NCBI RefSeq assembly: GCF_030708075.1
Contig: NZ_CP117982.1
Coordinates: forward strand, 1,951,513 to 2,015,512
Direction of reading: 5' to 3'
Source: Candidatus Epulonipiscium viviparus
GTDB lineage: Bacteria; Bacillota; Clostridia; Lachnospirales; Cellulosilyticaceae
DNA: 64,000 nt
Shown here one piece after another: positions 10,073-64,000 of the stretch. A program made the position numbers and the translations under genes. The stretch's first letter is position 1; each line of letters opens with the position of its first letter. A model generated the notes under the pieces. The model did not search any database. It saw nothing but the letters and a program-made list of their open reading frames with translations, and was not told where the DNA came from.

Positions 10073-11752
10073 TTATTCTATAATTAATTGATTAGTTGGA
10101 GCGCCGGGTGCAACCATAGGTAAAACTTTATCGTCTTTGTCTATGATACAGTCGATAACGGCAGGTTTATTTTGAGCAACAGCTTTTGAGAATGCTTCGT
10201 TAAATTCCTCTATGGTGGTTGCCCTATATCCATCTATAGCATACGCCTCTGCAAGTTTTACAAAATCAGGACCACGATCTAAAACTGTTTGAGAATATCG
10301 TTGCGAATAAAAAAGATTTTGCCATTGTCGAACCATTCCAAGTACGCTATTATTAAGAATCACTATTATAATAGGTAAATTATAGTATTGGATAGTTGAT
10401 AACTCATTGGAGTTCATTCTAAAAGAGCCATCTCCAGCAATTTGAATAATTTTCTTATTAGGAGCGGCAAGAGATGCGCCTATGCTAGCACCTGTGCCAA
10501 ACCCCATAGTTCCTAATCCGCCAGAACTTATAAATGTGCGAGGTTCTTTATAGCAATAAAATTGTGCTGCCCACATTTGGTGTTGACCAACTTCAGTCGT
10601 AATAATTGCGTTACCTTTGGTAAGAATATCAATGGATTCTATGATCTGTTTTGCATCTAATAATCCGCTAATAGAGTGATTGATAGTATGCTTAATTTTC
10701 CAGTTTTCAATTGTGTTAACCCATTCAGAATGCTTTTTGATTTCAACTGCCTGATTTAAAGCAGTCAAAATAACTTTTGCATCGCCGATTACACTCAATG
10801 TTACATTTACGTTTTTATCAATTTCAGCAGGATCAATGTCAATATGAATAATTTTAGCGTTTTTGGCAAAGTCTTTAATGCTACTAGTTACTCTATCACT
10901 AAATCTGGCTCCTATCGCAATTAATAAATCACAATTCATGATGCCTTCATTTGAAGCAACTCCTCCATGCATTCCAACAAGCCCTGTAGAAAGCGGATGG
11001 TTTTGAGGAAATCCACCAGCGCCCATGAGTGAGTTGGAAACAGGTGCATCGATTTTTTCTGCAAAGTCAAGTAACTCTTTTTCCGCACCACTTATAATTA
11101 CTCCGCCACCTATATATAAAAATGGTCTTTTGCTTTCATTAATGAGTTTTGCCGCAGTAGAAATATCTTGAGTAGAAAAGAAGTCATATTCTATTACTGA
11201 GTTTGAAAAAAAGTCATTAATATTTTGCAATGGTTCAAAATCAGTTGTTTTAATGGTAACGTCTTTAGGAATATCAATTAACACTGGACCAGGGCGCCCA
11301 CTTTTAGCGATTAAAAATGCCTCACGAATAGTATCTGCTAAGTCTTCTACTCGTTTAACAATATAGTTATGCTTTGTAATACTTCTAGTTACACCAGCAA
11401 TATCGATTTCTTGAAATGAATCTTTTCCAAGTAATGGAACACCGACATTTCCCGTAATTGCAATCATCGGAATAGAGTCCATATATGCTGTTGCAATACC
11501 GGTAACGAGGTTAGTTGCGCCCGGACCCGATGTTGCGATACAAACGCCAACTTTGCCAGAAACTCTAGCATAAGCATCTGCCGCATGAGCCGCCGCTTGT
11601 TCGTGTGCTGTTAATATATGCTTAATATAATCGCTAGCTTTATAAATTTCGTCATAAATTTCGATCACTGCTCCTCCAGGATATCCAAAAACAGTATCAA
11701 CGTTTTGTTCTTTTAAACATTCAATTAAAATCTGTGAACCACTTAATTTCAC
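10073..11752 (-). CDS. ilvB: Acetolactate synthase, large (catalytic) subunit
   Basis: This 559-residue ThDP enzyme condenses two pyruvates to acetolactate (valine/leucine branch), or pyruvate with 2-oxobutyrate for isoleucine. The N-terminal Pyr domain carries the catalytic Glu in the HEQAAAHAADAYAR segment near residue 50. The central domain binds FAD. The C-terminal PP domain shows the GDGSF...NN ThDP/Mg motif. Length matches IlvB rather than the catabolic AlsS, and the pathway context supports the anabolic form. It is the last enzyme gene of the ilv-leu operon, about 100 bp behind ilvD. No ilvN regulatory-subunit gene follows it, which is unusual; ilvN must be elsewhere or absent. Confidence 0.96.
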   Translation of the reverse strand: MKLSGSQILIECLKEQNVDTVFGYPGGAVIEIYDEIYKASDYIKHILTAHEQAAAHAADAYARVSGKVGVCIATSGPGATNLVTGIATAYMDSIPMIAITGNVGVPLLGKDSFQEIDIAGVTRSITKHNYIVKRVEDLADTIREAFLIAKSGRPGPVLIDIPKDVTIKTTDFEPLQNINDFFSNSVIEYDFFSTQDISTAAKLINESKRPFLYIGGGVIISGAEKELLDFAEKIDAPVSNSLMGAGGFPQNHPLSTGLVGMHGGVASNEGIMNCDLLIAIGARFSDRVTSSIKDFAKNAKIIHIDIDPAEIDKNVNVTLSVIGDAKVILTALNQAVEIKKHSEWVNTIENWKIKHTINHSISGLLDAKQIIESIDILTKGNAIITTEVGQHQMWAAQFYCYKEPRTFISSGGLGTMGFGTGASIGASLAAPNKKIIQIAGDGSFRMNSNELSTIQYYNLPIIIVILNNSVLGMVRQWQNLFYSQRYSQTVLDRGPDFVKLAEAYAIDGYRATTIEEFNEAFSKAVAQNKPAVIDCIIDKDDKVLPMVAPGAPTNQLIIE

Positions 11753-11851
11753 GTATTGTTCCTCCTTAGATTGTTAAATATTTAGTTTATTGACTAATTG
11801 CATAGGTTGGGTAATTGAGTTGATAAACGGGAATGCGAAATGTAGTATTCC

Positions 11852-13510
11852 TTACTTAAATACTGCTCCAGTGCTTGCAGACGTAACGAGTTTAGCGTAT
11901 CGTGCAAGGTAACCAGTTTTCACCTTAGGCTCTGGGTGAATCAAATTTTTATATCTAGTTGCTATGTCTGCTTCTGCAACATTGAGACAAATTGTGCAGG
12001 CATTCATATCGATGCTAATGATGTCGCCATCTTCAACGATAGCAATGAGCCCGCCTTCTGCTGCTTCTGGGGAAACATGCCCAATAGAAGCCCCACGCGT
12101 TGCGCCCGAAAAACGTCCGTCTGTAATGAGCGCAACATCTTTATCCAAGCCCATTCCAGCAAGTGTGGCGGTTGGAGATAACATCTCTCGCATTCCAGGG
12201 CCGCCTTTGGGACCTTCGTATCTGATTACAAGTACATCGCCTTTGGAAATTTTACCGTTTGCAATTGCCAAAGAGGCATCTTCCTCGCTGTTATAAACTT
12301 TTGCAGGACCACTATGTTTAAGCATTTCGGGTGCAACGGCCGAGCGCTTAACAACGCATCCATTTGGTGCTAAATTACCTTTCAATACAGCAATTCCGCC
12401 AGTTTTCGAATATGGAGCATCAACAGGTCTAATTACAGTAGTATCTTTATTTTCTGCAACAGAGAGGTTACTTCTTAAGTTTTCGCCAGTGACGGTAATT
12501 ATATCCTCATTTAATAAATTTTTGTGACTGAGTTCTTTCATAACAGCCATCACGCCACCGGCAGAATATAAATCTTCCATATGATGATGTCCAGCAGGAG
12601 CAAGTTTGCATAAATTTGGAGTATTATTAGAAATTCCGTTTGCAATATCGAGATCAATTTCTACACCAGATTCATGTGCGATTGCTGGGAGGTGTAACAT
12701 AGTATTGGTACTGCATCCAAGAGCCATGTCAACAGTTAATGCGTTCAAAAAAGCTTCCTTATTTAATATATCTCTGATGCAAATATTTTTCTCTAACATT
12801 TTCATAACAGCCATACCAGTATATTTTGCAAGTCGAATTCTTTCTGAGTATACTGCTGGAATGCTACCATTGCCTGGGAGAGCGATTCCTAACACTTCGG
12901 TCATGCAGTTCATACTGTTTGCAGTAAACATACCCGAGCATGATCCGCAGGTAGGACAAGTTTTTTCTTCATATTCAGAAAGTTCGGCTTCTGTCATTTT
13001 GCCAGCTTGCACCTGACCAACTGCTTCAAATATCAACGAAAGGCTGACTTTTTTGTCACCAATTTTTCCTGCAAGCATTGGGCCGCCGCTTACAACTACT
13101 GTAGGTAAATTTAATCTTGCAGCACCCATTAACATTCCAGGAACAATTTTGTCGCAATTGGGAACAAGCACTAACGCATCAAATCCATGTGCCATTGCCA
13201 TGCATTCAATAGAATCGGCAATTAACTCACGGGTTACAAGTGAATACTTCATCCCAGCATGCCCCATAGCAATGCCGTCGCATACGCCAATAGCTGGTAC
13301 TTCGATAGGTGTGCCTCCAGCAATTCGAACTCCAGCTTTTACTGCCTCTGTAATTTGGTCTAGATGTGTGTGTCCAGGAACTATCTCGCTTTTGGCACTT
13401 ACAATTCCTATAAAGGGTCTGCATATTTCTTCATCGGTGTAGCCCATAGCCTTAAGTAAAGATCGATGAGGAGCTCGCGCAATTCCTTTTTTTACTGAAT
13501 TACTTTTCAT
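11852..13510 (-). CDS. ilvD: Dihydroxy-acid dehydratase
   Basis: This 552-residue Fe-S enzyme dehydrates 2,3-dihydroxy-isovalerate and 2,3-dihydroxy-3-methylvalerate to the 2-oxo acids. The cluster-binding cysteines are visible in PNCDK and [11 protein letters not shown], and the late segment [12 protein letters not shown], typical of the IlvD/Edd family, is intact. The product feeds the neighbouring aminotransferase IlvE and, through ketoisovalerate, LeuA. It lies between ilvE (63 bp upstream) and ilvB. Length and motifs favour IlvD over phosphogluconate dehydratase. Confidence 0.96.
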
Positions 13511-54863: not shown

Positions 54864-56309
54864 TTAGAAATTAAAATTTTTGAGCATTTCGTCTTTCAAG
54901 AAGTATAGTTTATCTGATAAATCCACAGGCATAATTTCGGGATTAATAAATCTGGTATGCTCTTCCCACAAAGTAGCCATTTCTTTTTTTGCATAAGCTG
55001 CTATTTCTAATATGCTCGGAGATTCATAAACACATACGCCATCTTTAAAAATTGGCACAAGAAGTTCACGTAAAGTATATTTTCCAGGGAATAAAGCCAT
55101 TTTTTTCCAACGAGCATTGTGGTCAGAAGCTATTACAGTTTGAGTTTCATCGTAGTGCTCATCATCTAGTGCAACTATATCGACTTTGATTTTATGATGT
55201 TCTTTATCATAGAAGCGAACTATTTTTTTGATTCCGGGATTAGTCACTTTGGCAACATTATCAGAAAGCTTGATTTTGGGTATAAATTCACCATATTTAT
55301 TTTCAGTTGCAACAATTTTATAGACACCTCCAAATGCTCCCCAGCCTTCAGATGTAATCAAACGTGTGCCTACCCCCCACAACGAAATTTTTGCTCCTTG
55401 CAATTTTAAATCAGTTATTAAATTTTCGTCTAGGTCACTCGATGCGCTTATTATGGCCTGCTCATATCCGGCCGCATCCAGCATCCGGCGAGCCTTTTTG
55501 GAGAGATAGGCAAGGTCGCCACTATCAAGACGAATGCCATATATTCCGGTTAGTTTACCGACTTCTCGCAACTCGTCAAAAACTTGAATGGCATTGGGAA
55601 TACCGGAGCCAAGTGTATCATAAGTATCGACCAGCAGAATAGCTTTTTCAGGAAAAATATTGGCATAAGCTCTAAAGGCTTCTAATTCGGTATCGAAACT
55701 CATAACCCAGCTGTGTGCATGTGTTCCAGAAATTGGAAGTCCAAATATTTGCCCAGAAAGTACATTGCTAGTGCCAGTGCATCCGCCGATAATGGCAGCT
55801 CTAGCACCATATGTACCGGCATCAGGCCCTTGAGCGCGTCGCAATCCAAATTCAAGAACAGTATCTCCTTGGGCAGCAAGGCACACTCTAGATGCTTTGG
55901 TTGCGATGAGAGATTGATGATTGATTATATTTAATATAGCTGTTTCGATAAATTGTGCCTCTATTATATTAGATTTTACACGTAGAAGAGGTTCATTTGG
56001 AAAGACAATAGTGCCCTCAGGAACAGCGTATATTTCACCAGTAAATTTAAAAGTTCGTAGCATAGCTAAAAATTCATCTTTAAAAATATTCAAACTCTTC
56101 AAATATGCAATATCAGCTTCTGTAAAATGTAAATTGTTTATATAATCTATTACTTGTTCAAGACCTGCGCAGATGGCATATCCTCCGTTATATGGATTTT
56201 TGCGATAGAACATATCAAAGACTACAGATTTGTCAGTTATACCATACTCAAAATATCCTTGCATCATAGTAAGTTGATACAAGTCGGTTAAAAGTGTTAA
56301 ATTTCTCAT
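54864..56309 (-). CDS. pncB: Nicotinate phosphoribosyltransferase
   Basis: This 481-residue enzyme makes nicotinate mononucleotide from nicotinate and PRPP in NAD salvage, with ATP hydrolysis. The N-terminal LLTDLYQLTMMQGYF is canonical. The catalytic, phosphorylated His is in PISGTHAHSWVMSF, and the LDSGDLAYLSKKAR block binds phosphoribose. The next genes upstream, a sirtuin and a macrodomain, both handle NAD-derived groups, which may or may not be coincidental. Confidence 0.96.
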   Translation of the reverse strand: MRNLTLLTDLYQLTMMQGYFEYGITDKSVVFDMFYRKNPYNGGYAICAGLEQVIDYINNLHFTEADIAYLKSLNIFKDEFLAMLRTFKFTGEIYAVPEGTIVFPNEPLLRVKSNIIEAQFIETAILNIINHQSLIATKASRVCLAAQGDTVLEFGLRRAQGPDAGTYGARAAIIGGCTGTSNVLSGQIFGLPISGTHAHSWVMSFDTELEAFRAYANIFPEKAILLVDTYDTLGSGIPNAIQVFDELREVGKLTGIYGIRLDSGDLAYLSKKARRMLDAAGYEQAIISASSDLDENLITDLKLQGAKISLWGVGTRLITSEGWGAFGGVYKIVATENKYGEFIPKIKLSDNVAKVTNPGIKKIVRFYDKEHHKIKVDIVALDDEHYDETQTVIASDHNARWKKMALFPGKYTLRELLVPIFKDGVCVYESPSILEIAAYAKKEMATLWEEHTRFINPEIMPVDLSDKLYFLKDEMLKNFNF

Positions 56310-56411
56310 TATAAAATAAATCCCCCTTATACATTGATTTTTTACTGTATTGAATGGAATTGTCTATATGTAACTATACAACCTTTTGTTAAATTATACA
56401 AGTATTTAATT

Positions 56412-56444
56412 CAAAAATAAAGAAGCTATCTCCTATGGATAGCT
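56412..56444 (-). terminator. Intrinsic terminator of the macrodomain-sirtuin pair
   Basis: On the minus strand AGCTATC and GATAGCT form a perfect 7-bp stem around a 7-nt loop and are followed by TCTTTATTTTT, 15 bp after the sirtuin stop. Confidence 0.85.
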
Positions 56445-56458
56445 CAACGGTTGCTTAT

Positions 56459-57346
56459 TTATATATTATATATTTTCTTTAAATCATGCAAGGCATCATG
56501 AATATCATGGGTTATACAAATGCTTTGATCTGTAATTTCTGATGGAACAGAAACTTCGTTTAGATTAATGCTTACATACGTGGCTTTATTATTTAGTTTA
56601 GTATAATGCCAAAATGGATATTTGATGATGCCGGGTGTGTTTAAACCAACTCCTAGCTCTAAATACAATATTGGTTTGCTTGCAGAATATGTCAGCAAAA
56701 ATTCTTCGTAGCGCTCTTGTGCTGCATACCAACCTGGGGGTTGAGCAAATGTATCATCGATTCGCAAGTTGCTAATAGCAGGGGCGTCACAGTAGGGACA
56801 TTTTGGAAGCATCTTGGTGGGAACTCGCATATCTTTTTGAAATTTGACCATTGTTACTATTTGGAATTGATTTTTAAAGGTTTCTTGCACGCAAGGGACA
56901 GAACATTGAAATAGTTGATAGTCTCCTTGGGTATAAAATAATCTTTTTCGGTCGAAGCCGTGATTTAAAAAGGCATGATCTGCATTTGTGGTGAGTACAA
57001 AATAATTTTTATCTTTGATTAAATCAAACAAGATATCGTACGTATCATTTAATACATAGTTGTAGCCATTCATAAATACATGGCGACTCCAATATGCCCA
57101 TTTTGTTTCTAAATCCGGAAATTCATAAAATGCTGAAGAATACATATCAGTTAGACCAAATTTTTGAATGAAGTCGGGAAAGGCATCGGTAAACCTTTTG
57201 CCAGAATAAGTCAGCCCAGCAGATGTGGATAATCCAGCTCCAGCTCCAATTATAACATTATTAATTTGACTTAATATTTGTGCTAAATCTTCAATCTGTG
57301 CGGAGTAACTCGGAGTATATTTTGTAGTCGATATCTTTGAAGACAT
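56459..57346 (-). CDS. SirTM-type sirtuin (protein ADP-ribosyltransferase)
   Basis: This ~295-residue sirtuin starts at ATG 57346, 6 bp after GGTGG, overlapping the macrodomain gene by 56 bases. NAD-binding motifs are GAGAGLSTSAG (34-44) and TTNADH (119-124). At the usual catalytic His position it has TQGDY (139-143), the replacement that marks macrodomain-linked SirTM enzymes. Four cysteines (148, 152, 183, 186) fit a zinc site. Known SirTMs ADP-ribosylate a lipoylated GcvH-like carrier instead of deacetylating lysine. Here neither GcvH-L nor LplA is present in the window, so the target is open. Confidence 0.9.
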   Translation of the reverse strand: MSSKISTTKYTPSYSAQIEDLAQILSQINNVIIGAGAGLSTSAGLTYSGKRFTDAFPDFIQKFGLTDMYSSAFYEFPDLETKWAYWSRHVFMNGYNYVLNDTYDILFDLIKDKNYFVLTTNADHAFLNHGFDRKRLFYTQGDYQLFQCSVPCVQETFKNQFQIVTMVKFQKDMRVPTKMLPKCPYCDAPAISNLRIDDTFAQPPGWYAAQERYEEFLLTYSASKPILYLELGVGLNTPGIIKYPFWHYTKLNNKATYVSINLNEVSVPSEITDQSICITHDIHDALHDLKKIYNI

Positions 57347-58058
57347 TGAACACCACCTTAATCTTATCATTTTCGGTAAGGAAATTTTTAACAATTTTTA
57401 TGGCTATTTCTGCAGCTCGTCGGTTTGGAAAATGAAATTCTCCAGTAGAAATACAGCAAAAAGCGATGACATGACAGTTTTCTGCCGCGGCAATGCTTAA
57501 CGAAGATTTATAACAGTTTGCTAAGTCTTCTTCATTTTGAGGAGTTAATTTGTCATGTACAATAGGACCGACTGTATGGATTACGTAGCGACAAGGTAAA
57601 TTGAAAGCGGCAGTCATTTTCGCAGATCCCGTTGCTTCTGGATGCCCTTGTTTTGAAATAATTCCATCACAAGCTTGGCGAAGTTGTAGGCCAGCTGCAG
57701 AATGAATCGCATTGTCGATGCAATGATGATTTGGAATAAAACATCCAAGAAGTTGACTGTTGGCAGCATTCACGATCGCATCTACTTGAAGTCTAGTAAT
57801 ATCTCCTTTCCATACAAAAATGTTTCCGTCATCAGTAATAAGTTCTTCTCGAGAAATAATCCCTTTTTCGGCAATTTCTTGTGATAGAAAAGCATCTTGA
57901 ATCTGAAGCCATTCATCGCTAATGGGGATTGGTTTGCGTACATTCATTAAAGCACGTAATAAGTTGCGTTTTTCAGCAAAAGTCTGTGGAATTTCGAGAT
58001 CACTATATTCTGCTGCTAAATGTGTTACAAGATAGTCTAATCTTTCTGATTGGTTCAT
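57291..58058 (-). CDS. Zinc-containing macrodomain ADP-ribosyl hydrolase
   Basis: This 255-residue protein has an N-terminal helical part (1-75) and a macrodomain (about 78-250). ADP-ribose-binding motifs are WKGDIT (83-88) and NAANSQLLG (97-105). The segment C106...H111/H112-C113 (GCFIPNHHCID) matches the zinc-binding insertion of SirTM-associated macrodomains. The late CCISTGEFHFP loop binds the diphosphate. The predicted job is to remove the ADP-ribose that the overlapping SirTM adds. It is the first gene of the pair, with a GAGGTG site. Confidence 0.92.
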   Translation of the reverse strand: MNQSERLDYLVTHLAAEYSDLEIPQTFAEKRNLLRALMNVRKPIPISDEWLQIQDAFLSQEIAEKGIISREELITDDGNIFVWKGDITRLQVDAIVNAANSQLLGCFIPNHHCIDNAIHSAAGLQLRQACDGIISKQGHPEATGSAKMTAAFNLPCRYVIHTVGPIVHDKLTPQNEEDLANCYKSSLSIAAAENCHVIAFCCISTGEFHFPNRRAAEIAIKIVKNFLTENDKIKVVFNVFKDIDYKIYSELLRTD

Positions 58059-61538: not shown

Positions 61539-61567
61539 TTGATTAATAGTATAAAATAAGTTATAAT
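61539..61567 (+). promoter_or_regulatory. Promoter of the beta-CASP/coiled-coil/Hsp70 cluster
   Basis: TTGATT (61539-61544) and a perfect TATAAT (61562-61567) are 17 bp apart, about 70 bp before the beta-CASP start. Confidence 0.75.
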
Positions 61568-61636
61568 AATGGGTATATTTTCCAAGAAAGAGGGTGATTT
61601 TGCTGATATAAGATAGTTATTTGGAGGTGAAGATAG

Positions 61637-62761
61637 ATGAATCTTATGGTTTTGGGTGGAGGGCAAAATGTTGGGGCTAGTTGTTACTTTTTGAAGTTGG
61701 GAAAATCTAATATTTTGTTAGATGCCGGGATTGGAATAGACAAAGAAGGATTGGTTTTTACACCAAATTTACACGCATTAAAAACTTCACCATTTATAAA
61801 TAGTTTATCTCAGATTGATGAAATTTTTATTTCTCATGCGCATTTAGACCATGTTGGATATTTAACTCATGTTGCGACAGAATCAACTCAGGCGAATACA
61901 TACATGACAGCGGTGACTAAAGCTTTGACCAAATATCAATTATATGATAGAGTGTATAGTAATGCCAACGCAAGAGAATTAGAAAGGCTAGCAACTAAAT
62001 CGGTTTTAGATAGAATAATTTCTGTTACCTATGCAAAAACAATTAAATTTAGAAACTATAGTGCTACATTTTTTCCGGCAGGGCATATTCCAGGAGCAAT
62101 GATGATCTTGTTTGAATATCGTAATTCAAAGATTTTATATACTGGAGATTATTCTATTGCGAATAGTCCGTTGACCAGTGGGTGTTTTGATTTTTCAGGG
62201 TTTAAGATAGATACCATGATTATGTGTGGTTTGCATTCCAAACATTCCAGTTATGCAAAAAACCAAAATGGTATATATAAAACAATAGAAAAGATATATA
62301 AACAAATCTTTTTAGGTAGATCTGTATCTTGTCAGGTAAATCAGTTGACAAAAGGGGTAGAGTTTCTAAAGCTTCTCAATGATTTTAATCAGCAAGATAT
62401 TTTGATTTATGTTGATAAAAATTTACTGAATGTTATAGAAAAATTGGAAATACCGATATTGCATGAAAATGTGCGCTTATATAATAGTGCTACTGTATCG
62501 GATGCACCTCATATTTGTATAACGTCTAAAAAGGTTACAAAGTCTAAGTATTATAATATGAATATAGATTTTTCATTGCACGTAGACTTTTCGGAGATTA
62601 AAAATTTCGTAACTAAAATTAATGCGCGTCATGTATATATAGTTCATTGCGAAAAGCCGTTTAGTTTAAATGATCATGACATAGAACAAGCCGTAATGCG
62701 GGAATCGGATTGTCGTTCGCAATTTATTTTTATTGATAATCAGGAGATATATAGACTGTAG
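61637..62761 (+). CDS. Metallo-beta-lactamase-fold beta-CASP nuclease-like protein
   Basis: This 374-residue protein keeps the metal-ligand set of an active MBL-fold nuclease: HAHLDH (67-72), His150 in PAGHIPGA and Asp171 in YTGDYS. The C-terminal part shows beta-CASP-like motifs: His315 in FSLHVDFSEI and His337 in IVHCEK, as in CPSF73-type RNA nucleases. It is shorter than RNase J and lacks RNase J's C-terminal domain. GGAGGTGA precedes the ATG. It heads a rightward unit with a coiled-coil protein and an Hsp70-like protein. A nuclease role on RNA or DNA is likely; the target is unknown. Confidence 0.85.
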   Translation: MNLMVLGGGQNVGASCYFLKLGKSNILLDAGIGIDKEGLVFTPNLHALKTSPFINSLSQIDEIFISHAHLDHVGYLTHVATESTQANTYMTAVTKALTKYQLYDRVYSNANARELERLATKSVLDRIISVTYAKTIKFRNYSATFFPAGHIPGAMMILFEYRNSKILYTGDYSIANSPLTSGCFDFSGFKIDTMIMCGLHSKHSSYAKNQNGIYKTIEKIYKQIFLGRSVSCQVNQLTKGVEFLKLLNDFNQQDILIYVDKNLLNVIEKLEIPILHENVRLYNSATVSDAPHICITSKKVTKSKYYNMNIDFSLHVDFSEIKNFVTKINARHVYIVHCEKPFSLNDHDIEQAVMRESDCRSQFIFIDNQEIYRL

Positions 62762-62779
62762 AAAGAAGAGGTGTAAAAT

Positions 62780-63910
62780 TTGAGTAAAATTAATGTAGAA
62801 AAAAAAGAGGTTAAAAAGATTTTAGAAAAGGTCCATGTAATAATGGAAAAAAAGCATATTCCAAGAGTAAATCGACAGCATAATTTTGAACACTATATAG
62901 AAGAAAATAGAATGTTGCGAGTAATTTGTGAAGATTATTCGTACGAGCCTTATCAAATTGCTATTAATATGAATTCAAGATATGATTATGATTTGAATGG
63001 TTCGGACATAATTTTGAGCTTGAAAAAACGTAAATTGGGGCATCCGGCAAGAAGAGTTGAAATCTTTAGTTGGGCCGAAAAAACAATGCTATATTTTGGT
63101 CAAGCTATCAATGGTGATAAACAGGCCTTTGAAAAATTTCAAGAATTGCGACAAAATGCAATTAGCTCTCATATTTCTAGACATGAAGAAGAATTTAAAA
63201 TTTTGGCGATAATGATGTATTATAAATACCCGGAATTGGATGTTTATAAAGAGCTAAAAGAAATATATAAATTTGGAATTGTATATGCAAAGTATTTTTT
63301 CTATGATGTAGTTGATATTATTTCAGATGTGTATCATTATCCAAAAACTAATCAATTTAATAAAAAGTATAAGAATAATGATGAAATTAATAATTTATCA
63401 AAACAAGATTTGATAGATAAGATTACAGAATTAGAAAATAATAACAATAAATTAGAAAAAGATAACAACATGCTTAATAATATGTTAACGGAATTGCAAG
63501 ATGATTTTGAGAAACAGCTAGAAGAGAGTAAGGTAAAGGAATTTACGTATTTTTTTAGCCAATTAAATTCTGAAAAATATGGATGTGTTTTAGATGAATT
63601 ATTGGTAATTAAGAAAGAGGTTAAACGGTTACGAAAAGATAAATTTGATTTACCTATTAAATTAAATGGTCTTCTTATTTTGATTGATAAATTGGCTAAA
63701 TTTGTTCAGGATAATAAAATTAATCCGATGAAAAAAGGAAGTGATATTATAAATTTAACATTTGAAGAAGCACAATTTTGCTTATATGATGGAAGTCCTT
63801 ATGCAAATAAAACTGATGTAAAAAGAGTAAAAATAATTTCACCTGGTTGGATATATAATGACATTCAAATTTCAAGACCTAAAGTGATGGAGGTGACTAA
63901 TAATGCATAA
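62780..63910 (+). CDS. Coiled-coil protein of unknown family
   Basis: This 376-residue protein starts at TTG 62780 behind AGAAGAGGTG, 18 bp after the beta-CASP gene. The N-terminal ~190 residues are helical and mixed-charge with aromatic patches (EDYSYEPYQ; MMYYKYPELDVYKEL). A long Asn/Glu/Lys-rich coiled coil covers about 205-285 (LIDKITELENNNNKLEKDNN). A C-terminal ~70-residue globular part ends in GWIYNDIQISRPKV. No catalytic motif, membrane segment or known family is recognised. It overlaps the Hsp70-like gene by 8 bases, so the two are translationally coupled and probably work together. Confidence 0.75.
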   Translation: MSKINVEKKEVKKILEKVHVIMEKKHIPRVNRQHNFEHYIEENRMLRVICEDYSYEPYQIAINMNSRYDYDLNGSDIILSLKKRKLGHPARRVEIFSWAEKTMLYFGQAINGDKQAFEKFQELRQNAISSHISRHEEEFKILAIMMYYKYPELDVYKELKEIYKFGIVYAKYFFYDVVDIISDVYHYPKTNQFNKKYKNNDEINNLSKQDLIDKITELENNNNKLEKDNNMLNNMLTELQDDFEKQLEESKVKEFTYFFSQLNSEKYGCVLDELLVIKKEVKRLRKDKFDLPIKLNGLLILIDKLAKFVQDNKINPMKKGSDIINLTFEEAQFCLYDGSPYANKTDVKRVKIISPGWIYNDIQISRPKVMEVTNNA

Positions 63911-64000
63911 TGATTTATGTGTGGGCATTGATCTTGGAACCACCAACTCTGTTTTAGCAACTATTTCGCTGAAGCAAAATGGAGATGCGATTAGCAAAGT
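63903..64000 (+). CDS. Hsp70-like ATPase, N-terminal fragment (runs off window)
   Basis: An ATG at 63903 follows a near-perfect GGAGGTGA site by 6 bp and overlaps the preceding gene's stop by 8 bases. The 32 visible codons contain GIDLGTTNS, the phosphate-1 loop of the Hsp70/actin ATPase fold. The residues around it (MHNDLCV before, VLATISLKQ after) differ from canonical DnaK, and the neighbours are not grpE or dnaJ. It is therefore probably a specialised Hsp70 homolog. Size and C-terminal domain are outside the window. Confidence 0.85.
   Translation, partial: MHNDLCVGIDLGTTNSVLATISLKQNGDAISK

Follow-up and report, generated by a model that had tools for sequence, protein, structure and literature searches.

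CoCoNuT systems combine an McrB-like NxD GTPase and an McrC homolog with HEPN RNases (PMC11090510). In type III CoCoNuTs, the CnuD/CnuCD proteins consist of an Hsp70 NBD/SBD followed by HEAT-like repeats, the ATPase motifs of CnuD being partly degenerate, and an RNA-targeting role in conflict has been proposed for these RNase-containing systems (PMC11090510). GAP1-N2 systems are predicted conflict operons of Firmicutes and actinobacteria that encode an Hsp70 and a GrpE around a central TRAFAC GTPase with FNIII/DnaJ proteins (PMC7159879). In type VII CRISPR-Cas, the immune effector Cas14 is an MBL/beta-CASP RNase that possesses a Cas10-like C-terminal domain and is guided by Cas5-Cas7-crRNA (PMC10910872). 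Nucleases of the CPSF73 type function in eukaryotic and archaeal mRNA 3' processing. In Integrator, the HEAT protein IntS4 is part of the cleavage module together with the nuclease.

The window, a stretch of 64,000 nucleotides, comprises bases 1951513-2015512 of the 3.28 Mb single-contig genome of Candidatus Epulonipiscium viviparus, a giant and highly polyploid symbiont of surgeonfish (PMC8245194). At its end, a co-directional gene trio is located on the + strand. The first gene (61637..62761, ATG start) encodes an MBL/beta-CASP-type metallo-hydrolase of 374 aa, as assigned by motifs and profiles, and the second (62780..63910, TTG start) a 376-aa protein with a helical N-terminal domain, interpreted below as a GrpE-like nucleotide-exchange factor (NEF). 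The third gene encodes an Hsp70-like ATPase and runs past the window end (63903..64000). The gene order, the rightward direction and the 8-base overlap of the last two genes, as given in the initial annotation of this DNA, are all present in the sequence; the intergenic gaps are 18 bp (MBL/NEF) and -8 bp (NEF/Hsp70). Completion of the Hsp70-like gene from the flank, which that annotation had proposed, yields a protein of 931 aa (L002:5416-8211, genome 2015415-2018210). The next gene encodes an alpha/beta hydrolase on the opposite strand, so that the unit ends at the Hsp70 gene. Upstream of the MBL start, GGAGGTG is found at 61623-61629. The promoter that had been assigned to the unit, TTGATT-17-TATAAT (61539..61567, + strand), is present as a sigma-70-like site with 10/12 consensus matches, but it is not above chance on its own, since 13 promoter-like sites occur in the region vs 10.5 +/- 3.5 in shuffles.

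Just past the cassette, two large Sel1-repeat proteins are encoded in tandem (L002:9202-11175 and 11191-13356), and Sel1-like neighbours are found in genome G002 too. Further upstream in the window, on the - strand (54864-58058), genes for a pncB-like nicotinate phosphoribosyltransferase, a SIR2-family deacetylase and a macrodomain protein are arranged in tandem. This row resembles an ADP-ribosylation locus of the sirtuin-macrodomain (SirTM) type, and its SIR2 and macrodomain pair is kept in G002 (L011/L026).

The cassette shares with type III CoCoNuTs the succession of Hsp70 NBD/SBD and HEAT-like repeats as well as a putative RNase component. It differs from them in that its enzyme is of the beta-CASP type, the ATPase residues of its Hsp70 are intact, a GrpE-like protein is included and a GTPase is lacking. 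No McrB-like NxD GTPase or McrC was found in the window locus or in the core cassette, McrBC being only a neighbour in one plasmid (L128). The combination of Hsp70 and a GrpE-type protein is analogous to GAP1-N2 systems, which in contrast are organized around their GTPase; MBL is unmentioned in the text of the respective paper (PMC7159879). With Cas14, the cassette has an MBL/beta-CASP enzyme in common, whereas the type VII systems include neither Hsp70 nor NEF (PMC10910872). The window MBL reaches 79.5 bits with the Cas14 model NF045584 (cut-off 800), and no cas genes, Cas5 and Cas7 among them, are found at the window locus. The closest solved sequences to the window MBL are CPSF73, Ysh1, IntS11, archaeal aCPSF including aCPSF1, and Cas14 (8yhd). 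In contrast to the cassette, CPSF73-type nucleases are not accompanied by a chaperone pair, and the window MBL is devoid of the motif A Glu. Like DnaK and GrpE, the cassette combines an intact Hsp70 ATPase with an exchange factor of the GrpE type. This pair, however, is private, has an altered linker, a solenoid in place of the lid and no dnaJ, and its GrpE-like part is fused to a new N-terminal domain.

The window Hsp70 matches PF00012 at 6.9e-36, which places its NBD in the Hsp70 superfamily, and all of its ATPase residues agree with the DnaK alignment, while the interdomain linker differs. These residues are intact in 11/11 loci, and the protein had rightly been called an Hsp70-like ATPase. 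The architecture consists of NBD and SBD-beta, followed by an alpha-solenoid that replaces the C-terminal lid. This C-terminal helical array is predicted with a pLDDT of about 90, and HEAT/ARM proteins make up most of its best structural matches. SBD-beta was also detected by profile in the split Hsp70s of other lineages. No sequence link was found between the window solenoid and the separate HEAT proteins (hhalign 0.8%), and the relation between fused and split solenoids therefore rests on architecture. A stand-alone 343-aa helical protein (L115:6242-7273, genome about 1649240-1650270) is a paralog of the solenoid part; it matches the latter by profile (E 2.6e-8) and not by pairwise BLAST. 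It is adjoined by tandem-repeat DNA (L115:7383-8470) with translated (M)LRRQMVKS repeats. Genome G007 encodes unusually many divergent Hsp70-like proteins, some of them in adjacent pairs (contigs C28, C39, C41 and C81; loci L087, L092, L097 and L102).

For the NEF, no Pfam or NCBIfam family was above cut-off, PF01025 (GrpE) included. Three of its relatives, however, match PF01025 over nearly the full length at 17.5-18.2 bits (E 0.002-0.005) vs a cut-off of 25.8. The AlphaFold model, built with five sequences (pLDDT 74.7), shows an N-terminal helical domain, a helix of 55 residues, two helices and six short strands. The long helix or coiled coil spans residues 208-262 (63401..63565), and the helix pair with the C-terminal beta domain residues 263-374 (63566..63901), ending with the GrpE-like motif KIISPGWIYNDIQISRPKVMEV. 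This is the layout of GrpE, with a long dimerisation helix, a helix bundle and a C-terminal beta domain. Foldseek E-values were weak for both predicted models, with best values of 0.2 and 0.002, and match probability and consistency were used instead. Among the 50 PDB matches listed for the NEF, only GrpE/GrpEL1 chains reach probabilities of 0.63-0.94 (0.94, 0.90, 0.75 and 0.63; the GrpE-type entries are 9blt, 9bls, 1dkg and 4ani). In hhalign, the profile of E-type NEFs and that of NEFs from other cassettes align with 97% (E 1.4e-10), and NEF aligns with canonical GrpE at 45% (E 2e-4) in the correct C-terminal register, compared to <1% for column-shuffled controls. When the NEF-family profile was searched against 780 ORFs, the sole non-member match was one canonical GrpE. 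Searched against PDB sequences, the NEF profile returned nothing beyond coiled-coil noise, and Mob_Pre and other weak Pfam matches of the NEF were likewise discarded as coiled-coil noise. L065, a weak GrpE match, was set aside as it has no adjoining Hsp70. The 376-aa protein is thus predicted to be GrpE-like by fold and likely by function, although it is not a member by Pfam score. Of the description as an unrecognised coiled-coil protein, the TTG start and the long helix hold, but the protein is recognisable as a GrpE-like NEF. As the supposed coiled-coil adaptor is mainly a GrpE-like NEF, Hsp70 and NEF would form a dedicated machine.

The trio is found in relatives of the same genus and the same family. 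In two Epulopiscium species, the cassette occupies the same site between ileS and the hydrolase gene. At 30-33% identity, the trio is present on a 5.3 kb contig of a Ruminococcus MAG (L024) and at a second Epulopiscium locus (L013), which represents a divergent second trio of genome G003. In the E-type loci that were measured, the three genes directly follow one another in the same direction, and the gaps between them range from -8 to 168 bp. Wherever the contig allows, each confident homolog of the 376-aa protein adjoins a matching Hsp70 and MBL. With the Hsp70 as query, a Priestia megaterium plasmid was found on which genes for MBL, a hypothetical protein, Hsp70 and HEAT lie in a row, the hypothetical protein having the same GrpE-like C-terminal motif. 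The set of MBL, NEF, Hsp70 and HEAT, with HEAT as a separate gene, is encoded in variants of gene order on the Priestia plasmid, on plasmid CP079755 and in G604, G618 and G756, three Bacillota genomes from two families. Family f170 (L116, L129-L133) has a NEF-less variant, which is always located at a dhaKLM site and includes a coiled-coil 326-aa, a 501-aa and a 226-aa gene. An Hsp70 profile was built from five cassette Hsp70s; in leave-one-out runs, members scored >=339 bits and DnaK <=221 bits. This profile identified the cassette Hsp70 in 9/397 other Bacillota genomes, with MBL and HEAT adjoining in all nine, and in none of the 330 other genomes of the class sample. The NEF was found in 1/390 other Clostridia genomes and is absent from most genomes of the same family. 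The match in G031 and others at E 0.004-0.008 were false positives by context where the neighbourhood was inspected, and an Hsp70 locus on a Nostoc plasmid proved to be an ordinary DnaJ-GrpE-Hsp70 set without MBL.

The genomic neighborhood of the cassette differs between lineages. In G604, two genes for BrxD-like ATPases are part of the same tight operon. G618 and G756 belong to one genus; in both, about 200 bp separate the end of the MBL gene from a CRISPR array, and cas genes of type III-A (G618) and type I-B (G756) are located nearby. On CP079755, an integrase gene is located 5' of the cassette and McrBC 3' of it, and the Priestia cassette lies near genes for DprA and HNH proteins. The record CP079755.1 (L128) is labelled Klebsiella grimontii, has 34% GC and contains Hsp70 and McrC genes that are each split. 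At this GC content native Klebsiella DNA is improbable, and the GC content and the split genes together suggest a mislabelled or error-containing record. No defence neighbours were found at the window locus or in its two close relatives, and the Epulopiscium loci in general are free of them. Adjoining the CRISPR-flanked cassette of G618, genes for a PP2C phosphatase, FHA, radical-SAM-like and ATPase-like proteins and a Ser/Thr kinase are encoded (L135:12250-15887 and L139:970-3090; the Pfam check covers the kinase). In PADLOC 2023, the cassette had no strong match, with weak ones to PDC-M48B, PDC-M61B, LmuA, HEAT-ARM_XIII and Cas3. Neither the phage records nor the viral contigs searched contained the NEF, so a phage or viral origin was rejected; Hsp70 matches from phages show 26-31% identity, as DnaK does.

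The defence neighbours in three lineages (BrxD-like, CRISPR, McrBC) are suggestive of a role in conflict. Alternatively, the cassette may serve in housekeeping quality control of RNA and protein, where Hsp70 and NEF would sense stalled or misfolded nascent chains and recruit the RNase to the mRNA. The f170 locus, fixed beside dhaKLM and apparently inherited vertically, has a housekeeping-like appearance, the two Epulopiscium species share one insertion site, the ATPase residues are intact as in true chaperones, and phage carriage was not found. Against this speak the rare and patchy distribution of NEF and Hsp70 given above, even within the same family, and, in other lineages, the presence on plasmids and the proximity to genes of the CRISPR, BrxD-like and McrBC kinds, and we consider a purely housekeeping function possible but somewhat unlikely.

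The window MBL matches Lactamase_B, Lactamase_B_6 and RMMBL of Pfam, all above their cut-offs, with RMMBL at the C-terminus and a shortened beta-CASP cap. MBL motifs 1-4 (Asp, HxHxDH, His, Asp) are present, motif 1 being D29, and the metal ligands are complete (H67, H69, D71, H72, H150 and D171). H315 and H337 are the histidines of motifs B and C. Motifs 2-4 are invariant in 12/12 cassette proteins, in which the metal ligands and the motif B/C histidines are likewise intact, and seven of the twelve exhibit the full beta-CASP motifs. In motif A, the window protein has CGLH in place of ESTYG, with the Glu replaced. This acidic residue is lost throughout the Epulopiscium/Ruminococcus clade (CG[LT]H); the other cassettes retain the Glu, as does the second Epulopiscium locus (L013), whose MBL has no beta-CASP cap. 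The initial annotation's metal-complete beta-CASP protein stands as far as metal ligands and the histidines of motifs B and C are concerned; for the cap and motif A it has to be qualified. Motif A of MTH1203 serves to position the histidines of motifs B and C, and the motif C histidine marks beta-CASP enzymes of the RNA type (PMC3095777). The presence of this histidine makes RNA the likelier substrate of the cassette MBL and fits the previously suggested RNA-type nuclease; the window MBL is probably an RNase. Where the motif A Glu or the cap is missing, i.e. in the Epulopiscium/Ruminococcus MBLs and L013, the putative nuclease activity is uncertain, and for the window lineage it appears less certain than for the Priestia-type MBL. 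MBL matches on Nostoc, Crinalium and Herpetosiphon plasmids had no adjacent Hsp70 or NEF in the inspected neighbourhoods, so that relatives of the MBL also occur solo. Clostridia MBL proteins of about 835 aa (L032-L048) have a GGxxxVGASC start in common with the cassette MBL.

Dedicated Hsp70s for single clients are known, as in the case of HscA for IscU. Following this precedent, Hsp70 and NEF could fold, mature or protect the MBL, or one other client, with the MBL being a metabolic, non-nucleolytic enzyme. The loss of motif A and the shortened cap in the window lineage and the capless MBL of L013 agree with such a function. Since the motif B/C histidines are kept in all twelve proteins, the full beta-CASP motifs in more than half of them, and the nearest solved sequences are nucleases of the CPSF73, IntS11 and aCPSF type, we regard it as improbable.

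Phylogenetic trees of Hsp70 and MBL from 10 loci share the same topology, and the NEF tree departs from them only in the placement of G604; for G007, the MBL was taken from that genome's other copy (C37). A coincidental neighbourhood of three proteins without joint function, which shared ancestry could explain for the Epulopiscium loci alone, is very improbable: the Hsp70 and MBL trees are congruent, and the set is found, with its genes in varying order, in six or more divergent contexts. The MBL/beta-CASP-type protein, the GrpE-like factor, the ATPase-intact Hsp70 and the solenoid of predicted fold thus form a conserved, co-inherited set. The earlier idea of a system of nuclease, Hsp70 and adaptor is borne out as a recurrent gene set, to which the overlooked helical solenoid has to be added and in which the GrpE-like NEF takes the place of the adaptor. 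The adjacency of the Hsp70 and GrpE-like genes could also reflect a canonical dnaK-grpE operon beside an unrelated MBL gene, but this is refuted by the presence of hrcA-grpE-dnaK at 2.696 Mb, about 0.68 Mb from the cassette, a DnaK equivalog score of 123.9 vs a cut-off of 822.6 bits, the missing DxLLLD linker and alpha-helical lid, the lack of dnaJ and the MBL that always accompanies the cassette Hsp70.

Because this rare combination of genes is found repeatedly in Bacillota, at times beside CRISPR or other antiviral genes, the cassette is probably a chaperone-controlled nuclease system that has not been described previously; in the open-access literature, which was covered in part, no description of the MBL/NEF/Hsp70/HEAT set was found. 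We infer that its products act as one machine in which Hsp70 gates the hydrolase, with RNA as substrate and a role in conflict or stress. A dedicated chaperone-gated hydrolase module, likely for conflict or stress response, has about even odds in our estimate. A more specific and more novel reading is that of an undescribed immune or stress system of a giant polyploid bacterium, sparsely distributed in Bacillota and on their plasmids, where a beta-CASP RNase is gated by an ATP switch of the Hsp70/GrpE type, private to the system, together with a HEAT solenoid; we assign it a probability of roughly 0.4. In the proposed module, the probable MBL RNase is co-encoded with its own Hsp70, a GrpE-like NEF and a HEAT-like solenoid, the latter fused to Hsp70 in the window and provided by a separate gene in other lineages. 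The substrate-binding domain of Hsp70 and the solenoid would retain either the nuclease or a molecule that serves as trigger. ATP turnover, reset by the NEF, would act as the switch, the nuclease being inactive as long as it is held and active when released or recruiting. Specificity may come from the solenoid and from the N-terminal domain of the NEF, which is divergent. RNA would be degraded once the Hsp70 part meets a foreign or aberrant protein or RNP.

In known systems, sensing and timing fall to GTPases, AAA+ or STAND ATPases. If the proposed reading is true, bacteria would assign both tasks in a nuclease system to an Hsp70 that is dedicated to it and has an exchange factor of its own. 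The natural variants, with the solenoid fused or split and with or without beta-CASP cap and NEF, can reveal which component is the sensor and which the effector. The four components constitute a concrete and testable set. The reading also suggests what an orphan protein family may do, and it puts forward a candidate system for Epulonipiscium, whose biology is little known.
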